A DNA stretch of 40,344 nucleotides from Victivallaceae bacterium (GTDB lineage: Bacteria > Verrucomicrobiota > Lentisphaeria > Victivallales > Victivallaceae): positions 1 to 40,344 of the forward strand of contig JAQUTL010000025.1 of assembly GCA_028709805.1 (NCBI GenBank), read 5' to 3'. Shown here piece after piece: positions 8,744 to 12,948 of the stretch; positions within the stretch are counted from its first letter, which is position 1; every line of letters starts with the position of its first letter. The translations under genes and the position numbers were made by a program. The notes under the pieces are model-generated. The model saw only the letters and a program-made list of their open reading frames with translations, searched no databases and was not told the origin of the DNA.

Positions 8744-9325
8744 TTATTGCGCGTTGATTTTTTCCACCCGGAAGTAGTCCGTTCCGACCACTCCGACCAC
8801 CCGCACCGGAGTTCCGGCGGTCAGCGGTTCTCCGGCGAACGCTTTGATCTGGCGCGTGCAGTTCGGCAGTTGAACCGTAACCACGCCGGAGGCTTCGTCG
8901 CCGCCGGGAATGCCGAGATAAACCACGCCGGTTTTGTCCACAAACGCCTCGTCGCAGATGTTGCCCGACTGCTGCATGCGCAGGAAAAACCAGACGATCA
9001 GCGTGGTCATCGCCATCATGCCGACGCCGCAGAGCAGCGAAATCGCCAGCCCGGTGACGTCACGCCCCCAAAAATACCCCGCCCACCCGAAAAATGTGAT
9101 GAAAGCCACCAGTCCGCGGAGCGAGAAAAAGCTTACCAGCGACAGGTCGCCGCCGCCGGTCATGTCAACATTGGTCGGGTCGAAATCGTCGGCATCCAGG
9201 CTGTCTCCGCCCATTCCGGTCAGAATAAGAAACAACTGAATGACGAATACCGCGCTGCCGCCCAGCGCCAGATAGAAATAGAACTCCCTGGAATCCGCCA
9301 GCAGTTCGTTGATCTCCTGTACCAT
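8744..9325 (-). CDS. NfeD-like membrane protein
   Basis: This 193-residue partner of the downstream flotillin has three hydrophobic segments (about residues 15-36, 60-85 and 92-114). They are followed by a small soluble beta-barrel of the NfeD OB-fold type (about 125-193: DKTGVVYLGIPGGDEASGVV ... AGTPVRVVGVVGTDYFRVEKI). The frame stays open far upstream, but the start is set by AAGGAGG just before the ATG at 9325. The acidic linker between helices one and two (SLDADDFDPTNVDMTGGGD) is typical of the short NfeD forms lacking the protease domain. It forms an operon with the flotillin gene. Confidence 0.85.
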   Translation of the reverse strand: MVQEINELLADSREFYFYLALGGSAVFVIQLFLILTGMGGDSLDADDFDPTNVDMTGGGDLSLVSFFSLRGLVAFITFFGWAGYFWGRDVTGLAISLLCGVGMMAMTTLIVWFFLRMQQSGNICDEAFVDKTGVVYLGIPGGDEASGVVTVQLPNCTRQIKAFAGEPLTAGTPVRVVGVVGTDYFRVEKINAQ

Positions 9326-9392
9326 TTGCGCCTCCTTGATTTGAGTATACAGGGTAATATTTACCGTTTTTGCGGAAATACAAGTTTTTTCG

Positions 9393-9432
9393 GCGGGTTG
9401 ACAATAAAAATATTGGACAACCATCAACCCGC
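9393..9432 (+). promoter_or_regulatory. Inverted repeat abutting the ribosome site of the portal-like gene
   Basis: GCGGGTTG (9393-9400) and CAACCCGC (9425-9432) are perfect complements separated by an AT-rich 24-nt loop. The right arm touches the AAGGAG ribosome site (9433-9438). A TTGACA (9398-9403) lies in the left arm but has no convincing -10 box at normal spacing. It could be a protein-binding operator or an RNA hairpin controlling translation. Confidence 0.45.
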
Positions 9433-9445
9433 AAGGAGATAGATC

Positions 9446-10861
9446 ATGGACTATGGCTACATTTTCCGCCGAGAACATCCGCTGTGCCGCCGCAACCGCG
9501 CAGTGTGGGAACGCTGCCGCGCCGCCTATTCCGGAGGCTCGGAATACATCCGGCAGGCGCTGGTCCGGCATGTGTCGGAAATCGAAATCGAGTTTGAGGA
9601 GCGCCTCGCCCGCGCCTGCTACTTCAATTATCCGCGCAAGATAGCGCGGCTCATCACGCAGTTCGCGCTGTCGTCGCCGCCGGAGCGCCGCGGCGCCGAC
9701 CGCGACATTGAGGAGGACTTTTCGCGTACCGGTCTCCGGGCCAGTGAGGTGATGTGTCAGTTTTCGACGCTGCTCAACGTCTACGGCACGGCGTTTCTGG
9801 CGGTGGAAATGCCGGCGTTCTCCGGCGCGGTGACGCTTGAACGCCGGGAGAAGGAGAAACTGCGCCCCTACGCCCGGGCTTTGTCGCCGCTGGCGGTTCC
9901 GGATTACGCCGTCGGCGAGGACGGCCGGCTGCTCTGGGCGATAGTGGAGGAAAACACGCTGAGCAGCGCCGACCCGTTTTTGCCGCCGCGCGAACTGCGC
10001 CGCCGCCGGCTCTGGACCAGAAAGGACTGGCAGCTGTTTGAACTTGAGTCCGCATCCGGACAGGTCCGACTGGTCGCCGCCGCCGACCACAAGCTCGGTG
10101 CGGTCCCGATTGTCCGCGCTCAGGAGCCGGACGGCTTCGGACTGGCGGCCAACCACTGGTTCGAGGATGTGGTGCGCATATCCGACGCGATTCTGAACAA
10201 CGAGTCGGAGGCGCAGATGAACATCATCAAACAGATGTTCGGTCTGCTGGTGATTTCCGAGAGTTTTGCCCGCCGCGCCGACAACCGCAAGGACGAACGC
10301 GCCTCCGGCGGTGAAAAATTCAGTCACGTCCTCGCCCGCTCCGCCGCGTTGTGGGAGTCCAACGACGAAAAGGGGGTCAGCCGCTACATCGCCCCCACCG
10401 GAGTCGAAACCGCCCAGATCCGCGAGGAAAACGCCATGCTCAAGCGGGAGATGTTCGATGTTGTCGGTCTGGCCATCCAGAAGGAGAACGCCGTGGCGCA
10501 GACCGCCGAAAGCAAGGCGTGGGACTATCAGAACGTCCGTCAGTTTCTCGCCTGCCGGGTGGAGCTGCTCGAACAGCTTGAAACGGCGTGCTGGAAAATG
10601 ATGCGGCTGTACGATCCGTCGCTTCAGGTGCCGGAAATCGCCTACAACCGCGATTTCGCGGTGGTTGACCTCCGCGGTTCGATCGACGGCCTGCTGGCGC
10701 TCGGTCAGCTCTCCGACATTCCCGCCTATCGCGGTCTGGTGACGCGGGCCGCCGTGGGGTTGCTCGACAAATATCAGAAAATCCCGCCGGAAACCCGCGA
10801 CGCGGTCATTGCCGAGCTTGGGAAAGGAGGAGTGAACGATGCGACATTCCGCACTGAATGA
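9446..10861 (+). CDS. Phage portal-like protein (chromosomal, stand-alone)
   Basis: This 471-residue protein has the layout of tailed-phage portal proteins of the DUF4055-like type. It has a charged N-terminus ending in an aromatic segment (ARACYFNYPRKIARLITQFA, about residues 56-75) and an alpha/beta core (about 95-245). Next come the asparagine-rich helix NNESEAQMNIIKQMFGLLV (about 250) and a long C-terminal helix (EENAMLKREMFDVVGLAIQK to LLEQLETACWKMMRLYD). There is no signal peptide. AAGGAG lies 7 nt before the ATG. A portal is the dodecameric DNA gate of a phage head, but no terminase, capsid or tail gene is in the window. It is followed, with a 23-bp overlap, by a small gene and then a strong terminator. 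The remote homology is by eye, and identity as a true portal is probable rather than certain. Confidence 0.6.
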   Translation: MDYGYIFRREHPLCRRNRAVWERCRAAYSGGSEYIRQALVRHVSEIEIEFEERLARACYFNYPRKIARLITQFALSSPPERRGADRDIEEDFSRTGLRASEVMCQFSTLLNVYGTAFLAVEMPAFSGAVTLERREKEKLRPYARALSPLAVPDYAVGEDGRLLWAIVEENTLSSADPFLPPRELRRRRLWTRKDWQLFELESASGQVRLVAAADHKLGAVPIVRAQEPDGFGLAANHWFEDVVRISDAILNNESEAQMNIIKQMFGLLVISESFARRADNRKDERASGGEKFSHVLARSAALWESNDEKGVSRYIAPTGVETAQIREENAMLKREMFDVVGLAIQKENAVAQTAESKAWDYQNVRQFLACRVELLEQLETACWKMMRLYDPSLQVPEIAYNRDFAVVDLRGSIDGLLALGQLSDIPAYRGLVTRAAVGLLDKYQKIPPETRDAVIAELGKGGVNDATFRTE

Positions 10862-11108
10862 ACCGCTGACAGTCATGATCCCGGTTCCGGACGCCGGAAC
10901 CGGCGCCGCCGTCGTGCAGCCGGACACCGCCGTCGCCGCCGACGGCACGCTGGACGACCGGTCGGTGATGCTGATTTCCGCCGGTTTTGAGGTGATTCCC
11001 GGAATGATCGCGGTAACCGCCGACGGAAAAAAACGCGAAATCACCGCGGTTCGCGTCTGCCGGACGCTTAACGGCCGGCGCACGATATACCGCTGCACAT
11101 TTGAGTGA
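10839..11108 (+). CDS. Small protein paired with the portal-like gene, possible head-tail connector
   Basis: This 89-residue, mostly beta-strand protein overlaps the end of the portal-like gene by 23 bp and has a near-perfect ribosome site (GGAAAGGAGG at 10821-10830, 8 nt before the ATG), which indicates translational coupling. The C-terminal half (GMIAVTADGKKREITAVRVC ... RRTIYRCTFE) resembles the small barrel of phage head-closure or adaptor proteins, but it is too short for a secure assignment. The N-terminus is rich in alanine, valine and proline with no hydrophobic helix. It ends 9 nt before a strong terminator, so the unit has just two genes. Confidence 0.6.
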   Translation: MRHSALNEPLTVMIPVPDAGTGAAVVQPDTAVAADGTLDDRSVMLISAGFEVIPGMIAVTADGKKREITAVRVCRTLNGRRTIYRCTFE

Positions 11109-11117
11109 CGCCACCCG

Positions 11118-11164
11118 ACCGGCGTCCGGCGCCCCCACCGGGTCCGGACGCCGGTTTTTTATTT
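11118..11164 (+). terminator. Strong intrinsic terminator of the portal-like operon
   Basis: A perfect 12-bp GC-rich stem (11118-11129 with 11144-11155) is followed directly by TTTTTTATTTT. It begins 9 nt after the stop codon of the small partner gene. Confidence 0.92.
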
Positions 11165-11253
11165 TGCGGAGCCCCCCGAACCGGCGTCTTCCGCCGCCCC
11201 GACCGAGAAATGGTTTCTCTCCCCGTCCCGGAGCGTGAATCCCGCTCCTCCGG

Positions 11254-12948
11254 CTACAAATCGGTTTCAATGTTCAAGGTCAGCGTTTCACCGCTGCGCC
11301 GCCAGCGCACGGACTCAAAACGATTCTTCAGCATCATTATGGCCAGATCCAGTTCGTCCGGCATCCCGTGTCCGCCAAGCGACACGGAAGCCAGCTTCGG
11401 ATGTCCGGCGGTAAGTTTGATCTTCACCTGCATCCGGTCATAGGAGAGAGCCACTCCCAGCTGGTTGTCCACCCCCTTGACGCACAGGCCTTCACAAACC
11501 GCGTCCAGTCCGAAGATCAGACTCTGCGACAGGTTTTTTGAAACACACCACCGGCGGCACACATCCCGAAGTTTCGTGTTCAGAAGCTGAACCGCCGCCG
11601 CGTCAACCGCTGAAGAAAACTGGATATGCCGCCGCGTTCCCAAACTGGTCAAAACCGTCATCACCAGCAGGATCACCGTTCCCATGACCACCGGCGACAG
11701 GATGACCACTCCGATGTTCTGCGGCACAAACGTCCAAAGTCCGGGGATCATCGACGCCACCGCGAAGATGATTGAGATGAAAATGACAAATATCCTCCGG
11801 TCGTCCAGTTCGACCGCCGAGAGCGCGGAGAACCCGCCGGCCATAATGTAGGCAATGCTGAAAATCAGCACCGCTCCGAGTACCGGCTCCGGAATAAGCA
11901 TCAAAATTCCCATGGCGCGCGGAAAAAACGCCAGGGCAATCAGAATGCCGCCGGCGATGTAGCCGACCACCCGGCTGGTCACCCCGGTGGCGCCGGCAAT
12001 GCCGATATTGGCGGTAGCGGTCGACTGGATCACTCCGCCGGTAAGTCCGGCGAGCATCGAGCCGAGTCCGGACGCCCGTATGCCGTTCTCAATGCGCCGC
12101 CAGTCGGGGCGCTTGAATGCCGGATCGCTGATTTTCTGGACGGCCGTGTAATCGCCGATATTGTCCACGATCGCGGCAATGGTGACGATCATAAACGGAA
12201 TCGCCACCCGCCAGTCAAAAGCAAAATCAAACTTTTCGGGATATGGAATCCGGAAGACCGGCGTTGCCGAAAGCTCGGAGACCGCGCCACAGTCGAAAAT
12301 CCCCACCGCGAAAGACAGCAGAAATCCCGCGACGATGCCGAATAGCACCGCATAGTTTTTCAGTACGCTGCTGAAGATTGTGCAACTCAGCATTACCAGC
12401 AGCGAACAGATGGCCACAAACAGATGAAGCGTGGAAAAATCTCCGGTCCGCATATAATATCCGGTTCCGAGAAAATACTTCAGACCGGTTGGAACGATGC
12501 TGATGCCCAGAATGAAAATCATGCAGCCGGTGACCTCCGGCGGGAAGAGTTTGCGGAAAAAGTAGGTGAACGATCCGAGTATACCCTTGAACAGCCCGGA
12601 AAGAACGGTCATTCCATAAACCAGCGGCATGCCGCCGAGCTGCGCGGCCAGAGTGCATGCCGACAACGCCGCGGAATCCGACACGGAAAGGTCCATGCAT
12701 CCGTTGCCGAAATACCGGCTTGGCAGCGTCTGAAGAATGCCGGTGACGCCGATGGTCAGCAGTGCCAGCGAAAGGAAGATGCCGGATTCGCCGGGCGTCA
12801 GTCCGGCCGTCCGCGCGATCGTTACCGGCAGCGCCAAGCCCAGTGACAGCACCAGCAGCATATGTTGAAGAGCGGAAAAGACAGTCAACATCAACGGCGG
12901 CCGATCCGCCGGACGGTAGAAAACCTGCTTGGGGGATTGGGTACTCAT
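11254..12948 (-). CDS. NCS2-family nucleobase permease with C-terminal HATPase-like tail
   Basis: This 564-residue protein has a uracil/xanthine permease core with about 14 membrane segments (residues 15-450). Family features are the start MLTVFSALQHMLLVLSLGLALP, the QSTATANIGIAGATGVTSR segment that lines the substrate site in NCS2 proteins, and the LIPEPVLGAVLIFSIAYIMA helix. It differs from typical members in a cytoplasmic extension of about 115 residues. That extension reads like a degenerate RsbW-type ATPase domain: LIFGLDAVCEGLCVKGVDNQ at the N-box position, and a terminal LAIMMLKNRFESVRWRRSGE followed by TLTLNIETDL. The N-box asparagine is missing. GAAGGA lies just before the ATG. The transported base is not predictable; the tail may regulate transport. 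Confidence 0.85.
   Translation of the reverse strand: MSTQSPKQVFYRPADRPPLMLTVFSALQHMLLVLSLGLALPVTIARTAGLTPGESGIFLSLALLTIGVTGILQTLPSRYFGNGCMDLSVSDSAALSACTLAAQLGGMPLVYGMTVLSGLFKGILGSFTYFFRKLFPPEVTGCMIFILGISIVPTGLKYFLGTGYYMRTGDFSTLHLFVAICSLLVMLSCTIFSSVLKNYAVLFGIVAGFLLSFAVGIFDCGAVSELSATPVFRIPYPEKFDFAFDWRVAIPFMIVTIAAIVDNIGDYTAVQKISDPAFKRPDWRRIENGIRASGLGSMLAGLTGGVIQSTATANIGIAGATGVTSRVVGYIAGGILIALAFFPRAMGILMLIPEPVLGAVLIFSIAYIMAGGFSALSAVELDDRRIFVIFISIIFAVASMIPGLWTFVPQNIGVVILSPVVMGTVILLVMTVLTSLGTRRHIQFSSAVDAAAVQLLNTKLRDVCRRWCVSKNLSQSLIFGLDAVCEGLCVKGVDNQLGVALSYDRMQVKIKLTAGHPKLASVSLGGHGMPDELDLAIMMLKNRFESVRWRRSGETLTLNIETDL

Follow-up and report, generated by a model that had tools for sequence, protein, structure and literature searches.

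Dispersed Phage-Type Genes, Including a Portal and Stopper Pair, Probably Encode a Gene-Transfer-Agent-Type Particle in Victivallaceae

The window, i.e., the whole stretch of 40,344 nucleotides that was analysed, carries a gene for a phage portal protein and a gene for a predicted head-closure (stopper) protein. This pair is probably one of eight loci that jointly encode a particle of the gene transfer agent (GTA) type, kept vertically in the Victivallaceae. The other parts lie scattered over the window genome (G000), seven of the eight loci have an upstream element in common, the genes occur together across the family, and the dispersed type has descended with its hosts. We infer the particle, its packaging and its delivery from genes alone. 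An earlier note on this DNA had taken the pair for a stand-alone unit. The common element and the presence of the capsid gene, both terminase genes and tail-type genes elsewhere in G000 contradict that view, and with capsid and terminase located there a stand-alone domesticated portal is ruled out.

The Portal and Stopper Genes

The two open reading frames of the pair are intact, as the earlier note had described. They lie on the forward strand at 9446..10861 (471 residues) and 10839..11108 (89 residues), overlap by 23 bp and both begin with ATG, the start codons being our own calls. The predicted ribosome site was also present, as AAGGAG at 9433..9438 (+, read from the sequence), and upstream of it lies GGTTGAC at 9396..9402 (+), a promoter-like element common to other structural loci. 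The terminator that had been proposed behind the second gene is a predicted intrinsic hairpin at 11117..11156 (+), which starts 8 nt past the second stop codon and is followed by a T-run to 11165. Its folding energy is -34.2 kcal/mol (z -4.4), a stability equalled by none of 200 shuffles; the simple terminator scan, the rule of which admits loops of 3–8 nt, did not report it. No sigma-70 promoter-like site was found by the promoter scan in 9200–11300, and neither the Rfam nor the tRNA scan gave a match in the window. An antisense frame of 784 residues overlies the portal gene; it was taken as a gene by longest-ORF calling and was dropped when a codon-scored gene caller was used.

The portal homology, formerly judged by eye, is far beyond chance. 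In a PHROG profile search, phrog_145 matched residues 9–461 with an E-value of 2e-39. The protein matched 31 phage records, with 22–26% identity over 81–98% of the length among the 20 listed, and it shares 47% identity with a second portal in the genome, which belongs to a long phage-like cluster on contig C40; Pfam gave no match to any portal family. The 89-residue partner (family F1) has a predicted small all-beta fold as in phage stoppers, and its best structural match is a chain of the virion of RcGTA. It appears to fit the stopper family and resembles a part of the head-to-tail connector.

The five flanking genes searched encode a HlyD-type protein, a Band_7 protein (E 1e-27), an NfeD-like protein (a weak match, E 0.02, under the Pfam cut-off), an NCS2 permease and an ADP-ribosylglycohydrolase. 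None is phage-like, which agrees with the earlier note, and within these flanks the portal gene is not embedded in a contiguous cluster of head, tail or further phage genes as it would be in an intact prophage. The earlier note had proposed to look in relatives for the pair between nfeD and an NCS2 gene. The NfeD/SPFH side was recovered in the other genome of the genus, but the NCS2 side was not. When 40 portal contexts were read, 20 were dispersed, 14 belonged to a cassette of genus g15 and six were longer phage-like clusters; the pair is thus not confined to complete prophages; had it been so, the reading of the earlier note would have been refuted. Among the 20 dispersed contexts, 17 consist of portal and partner only, two also include the large terminase gene (TerL), and in one a T180-type gene replaces the partner.

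Further Loci of the Window Genome

Besides the pair on C25, seven separate loci were found in G000. A scaffold–capsid–adaptor operon lies on C27, TerL on C41, the small terminase gene (TerS) on C35 and a gene for a tube-type protein of 281 residues on C36. C38 holds two loci, T486–T180–154 aa and CYS6, which encodes a Cys-rich helix-turn-helix (HTH) protein; a fibre–133–380–72 aa operon lies on C39. The neighbours of the dispersed loci are host-like by eye, as judged from the starts of their sequences.

Portal, capsid, TerL and TerS are identified by sequence profiles, the first, third and fourth through G000's own proteins and the SU10-type capsid through a family representative. The other identities are supported, though more weakly. 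The scaffold profile fell just below the cut-off, and the adaptor and stopper are assigned from predicted folds. The tail, with tube, terminator and fibre, is the weakest part of the set. No clear PHROG or PDB match was obtained for the tube family, which was detected in 23 of 81 genomes, and a PDB sequence search with portal, capsid and tube gave nothing useful. Tube proteins of about 290 residues at six loci outside G000 carry a terminator half, with E-values of 5e-11 to 4e-23 from a prophage-only profile, which are independent, while those of an earlier profile were partly self-matches. The G000 tube protein is of similar length; its second half was not matched by the terminator profile, and a tube–terminator fusion in G000 was accordingly dropped. 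T180 of G000 reached an E-value of 5e-3 only and is assigned from its adjacency to T486. The genes of 154, 133, 380 and 72 residues are assigned solely from operon position, and the 72-residue membrane protein looks holin-like by eye. The fibre protein has an alanine-rich stretch and weak tail matches (phrog_1419, E 2.8e-4); its 750-residue counterpart in G010 matches tail-fibre families at 1e-48, a score inflated by collagen-like repeats. A tail-less, head-only particle had been considered and was dropped after the diverged tube, terminator and fibre-type genes turned up.

The dispersal can be read on a single contig in G010 (strain zth2, CP071032, 3.2 Mb). The portal lies at 1.786 Mb, the capsid at 1.774, TerS–TerL at 1.604, CYS6 at 1.974, two tube–terminator fusions at 0.740 and 1.276, and T486 at 2.605, so that the loci spread over 0.74–2.60 Mb.

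Two other features of G000 and its relatives were seen in passing. The C40 cluster of G000 (L003–L005) is long and phage-like, and many parts have homologues in it. Short peptides encoded at L192 (G000:C33:89564) and L138 (11382–12671) have PPDPGCFLPGLE near the end; one of them adjoins a gene that by eye resembles a radical-SAM enzyme, and the peptides are perhaps precursors of modified peptides.

A Common Upstream Element

GGTTGAC was first seen by reading upstream regions, where it precedes all six of the structural loci inspected in G000 and all four in G001; it was not seen before CYS6. Of 107 first genes of structural units, 88 have the shorter GTTGAC in the 160 nt before them, as opposed to 52 of 1195 other genes of the same loci; GTTGAC includes the core of a sigma-70 -35 box, and some of the control genes lie inside operons. 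It is the 6-mer with the largest excess of all. Non-first genes of the units have it in eight of 178 cases and the opposite strand of first genes in four of 107; for GGTTGAC the figures are 63 of 107 first genes and 21 of 1195 others. With the discovery genomes G000 and G001 left out, 78 of 97 first genes still have GTTGAC. All tested structural units carry it in G000 (6/6), G001 (4/4), G010 (5/5) and G019 (4/4). Exceptions were found in G036 (one of four units), among TerL first genes (6/11) and in g15 (14/19), and CYS6 has the motif in three of nine cases.

The element also led to further genes, namely the T486 gene of G010 and the fibre operon of G000. In G010, a pattern scan yielded 14 matches, compared with five for the reversed control; six lay at structural units, and T486 was newly found in this way. 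A stricter scan of G000 gave six matches and none in the control. Three of the six lie at units already known and one at the fibre operon; the other two have no phage-like gene behind them.

Eight of the 11 scanned stretches, from prophage-type or f2 loci, have GTTGAC before one or more labelled structural genes, as do three of five closely related IMG/VR contigs. Because related prophages carry it, the element probably is a late promoter of phage origin, retained by each unit. An initial reading as a regulon invented by the host was replaced, since the related prophages have the motif before late genes too.

Joint Presence and Purifying Selection

With any match at E 1e-5 scored as presence, in genomes that vary in completeness and are not independent of one another, the 78 family genomes include 65 with portal, 66 with TerL and 64 with capsid; all three are present in 64 and none in 12. 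G049 is without capsid and G068 has a TerL fragment only. As the genes of g15 are linked, this genus was left out of a second count. The 44 remaining genomes include 35 with portal, 35 with TerL and 34 with capsid; 34 have all three, nine have none, and the remaining one has portal and TerL without capsid. The nine absences fall in six genera, and one of them is G039 of g7, a genus whose other members have portal and TerL. G024 was scored as a capsid carrier although the close match in this genome is fragmentary and the long one has 44% identity. Among the family genomes within G000–G048, TerS was found in 39 of 40 carriers, CYS6 in 36 and T486 in 30, and each of the three in none of nine non-carriers. 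T486 is absent from all seven g15 genomes searched, from both g9 genomes and from G031.

In G004, G021 and G032 (genus g4), 12, seven and 21 TerS-like HTH matches were counted, often as tandem pairs within longer open frames; these may belong to another HTH family. TerL of the same three genomes lies in several pieces across contigs. Capsids 50–52% identical, of family f4 of the order, were found in G112:C2 (L120), G115 and G133, one of them in a short gene context, and may represent a further relative of the system.

The ratio dN/dS (NG86), rough here as many dS values exceed 1, is 0.06–0.19 for portal (18 pairs), 0.02–0.16 for capsid (16 pairs), 0.07–0.23 for TerL (14 of 16 pairs, two being saturated) and 0.02–0.13 for the host protein LeuRS (11 pairs). 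Selection on portal, capsid and TerL is purifying, and the portal values uphold the maintained function proposed in the earlier note. Portal and TerL evolve faster than LeuRS.

These results bear on an alternative, namely that the loci are remnants of old prophages, broken up, which persist by chance or for roles of single proteins and make no particle. Damaged units do exist: the portal frame has stop codons in G006, G043 and G049, the portal is shortened to 294 residues in G026, and in Victivallis vadensis DSM 14823 the capsid gene is called only as an 84-residue piece beside a serine recombinase gene. The set is also missing from nine of the 44 genomes outside g15. Decay of this kind would not be expected to leave dN/dS at 0.06–0.19, nor the promoter motif before all tested units of G000, G001, G010 and G019, nor unlinked genes that are present or absent together, and remnants are considered unlikely. 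In the V. vadensis strain (NZ_QEKH01000031, L268, 77–2424), the adaptor gene beside the capsid piece is intact; the set may be decaying in this type species.

The Packaging Proteins

TerL has kept each residue of the Walker A motif GGSRSGK and ten acidic residues past position 150 in at least 34 of 35 sequences. TerS of G000 has 94 residues and lacks the N-terminal HTH region, with an in-frame stop 12 codons upstream. The region is missing from 11 of 28 non-prophage rows, i.e., from G000, five g7 genomes (100 residues) and five g15 genomes (77–83 residues), and is kept in the other 17, G001, G010 and G019 included. In prophage-type TerS, it is present in five of five rows. Known GTAs are described in excerpts of PMC11841831 and PMC7947584 as having a TerS without the DNA-binding domain. 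The loss in G000 is the best hint in the sequences of a packaging that may be unspecific.

The packaging genes also bear on the idea that the particle was domesticated for another use, e.g., the killing of kin, as a decoy or in defence against related phages. Killing particles derived from phages exist. The family or its vicinity also has related prophages and viral contigs, whose capsids reach 70% identity, and interference with them is conceivable. Against such a use stands the packaging motor that has been kept (TerL with intact motifs, TerS and portal) together with a capsid, all of which would be superfluous for an empty killer tail. Another use is likewise rated improbable.

Descent and the g15 Cassette

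Distances between genomes were compared with those of one host marker, LeuRS. Without g15, r is 0.77 for portal (19 genomes), 0.77 for capsid (15) and 0.86 for TerL (16); with g15, the values are 0.57 (26), 0.47 (21) and 0.67 (23). None of 5000 permutations reached any of these correlations. In the trees of portal and TerL, each genus represented more than once is a clade, the exception being TerL of g15, which is unresolved relative to a prophage. That the loci are a phage satellite or the parts of a split prophage, assembled by a helper phage, is scarcely credible: the C40 cluster does hold homologues of many parts, but members of a genus have the same flanks, divergence follows LeuRS once g15 is left out, and the set is also carried by genomes, such as G010 and G019, in which portal, TerL and capsid each have one match only.

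The g15 cassette conflicts with the host tree. It clusters with a prophage of G001 (portal 100/98, TerL 100/99), while by LeuRS g17 falls within g15 and both stand beside g7. Because support at the deep forks is modest (portal 85/88, TerL 84/54), a second domestication is likely, not certain. F1 had been thought absent from g15, a view that was dropped because two g15 genomes have an F1–tube pair at a different locus.

Beside the g15 cassette lies a divergently oriented gene of family F8 (L053, L060–L063, L067, L070–L074), which encodes a repressor-like HTH with Peptidase_S24. Its catalytic-type serine motif appears altered in L053 and L074. A g15-type cassette with an S24-type regulator was also seen in UViG_3300022661_003906 (IMG/VR, L272), which is filed as viral and may be a piece of a bacterial chromosome.

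The Proposed Particle

A particle of the GTA type, the preferred reading, would work as follows. A regulator, for which CYS6 is a candidate, would turn on the GTTGAC units in some cells. Scaffold and capsid would assemble the head around the portal. TerL, paired with a TerS devoid of the sequence-reading region, would fill it with host DNA by the headful and without choice of site, and its closure would fall to adaptor and stopper. A tail of tube and fibre proteins would complete the particle, which would carry bacterial DNA to kin. CYS6 is a guess at the activator: its C-terminal part is HTH-like, it adjoins TerS in phage-like clusters, and GTTGAC is usually missing upstream of it. A late promoter of its own before several late units of the ancestral phage would have allowed the units to be dispersed. 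The balance tips towards a fuller account, in which a Victivallaceae GTA occupies eight or more loci of one or a few genes, its late-promoter regulon came from the phage ancestor, the DNA-reading region of TerS was lost more than once, tube–terminator fusions occur in several genera and a seven-gene cassette was domesticated independently in a sister genus.

Excerpts of PMC9662315 characterise GTAs by proteins similar to those of tailed phages, and such similarity was found for portal, TerL and TerS of G000 and, via a family representative, for the capsid. They further name full endogenization, often over multiple loci, which is seen in the eight loci of G000 and in the chromosomal spread in G010, and mostly vertical inheritance with co-diversification with the host, to which the genus clades and the r of 0.77–0.86 with one host gene correspond for the dispersed type. 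The same source adds that mostly random host DNA is packaged, that the GTA's own genome cannot be fully packaged and that DNA is delivered to cells. Given the chromosomal spread, the whole gene set is unlikely to fit in one particle.

Lentisphaerota bacterium zth2 is a cultured carrier from the deep sea that released phage-like particles when fed polysaccharides, according to passages in PMC11361711; with laminarin or starch, filamentous, hexagonal and icosahedral phage-like particles were reported, from which an inovirus and a 40.4-kb Caudoviricetes genome were sequenced. A search of this Caudoviricetes genome, phage zth2-2 (OL791268), over 40,000 of its 40,470 bases showed none of the families, which rules it out as the source of the genes. 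Since zth2 is cultured and reported to release such particles, the idea can be tested now.

Comparison with Known Systems

No description of a GTA in Lentisphaerota was found in the literature, as covered by open-licence full texts. If the proposal holds, the particle would be the first GTA in this phylum and the most fragmented virus-derived particle known to us, and it would show how far a virus can dissolve into a host genome under selection. Co-occurrence together with a common late promoter could serve as a rule in the search for similar systems.

Intact clusters of tailed phages and prophages contain the same protein families (portal of phrog_145, SU10_MCP capsid, terminase of phrog_979), but there the genes are contiguous and TerS has its N-terminal region. 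RcGTA and its relatives in alphaproteobacteria (Rhodogtaviriformidae) likewise have head, packaging and tail genes derived from tailed phages, inherited vertically and placed at several loci, five for RcGTA in an excerpt of PMC9662315. RcGTA also has a TerS without DNA-binding domain, as passages of PMC11841831 and PMC7947584 state, and the window stopper finds its best structural match in the RcGTA virion. The Victivallaceae set differs in its phylum, in the lack of a single head–tail cluster in window-type genomes, where TerL or TerS stands alone at a locus, and, compared by description, in the SU10-type capsid (family representative) and the common GTTGAC element. In the Brachyspira GTA (BhGTA/VSH-1, Brachygtaviriformidae), an identifiable terL likewise lies outside the delineated cluster, but the structural genes form a cluster of 16.3 kb (excerpts of PMC9662315), whereas here the head and tail-type genes are split as well. 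GTAs are described in a passage of PMC11841831 as a core structural cluster with accessory genes elsewhere. GTA genes at several loci are thus already known; the new aspect would be their near-complete unlinking, in another phylum.
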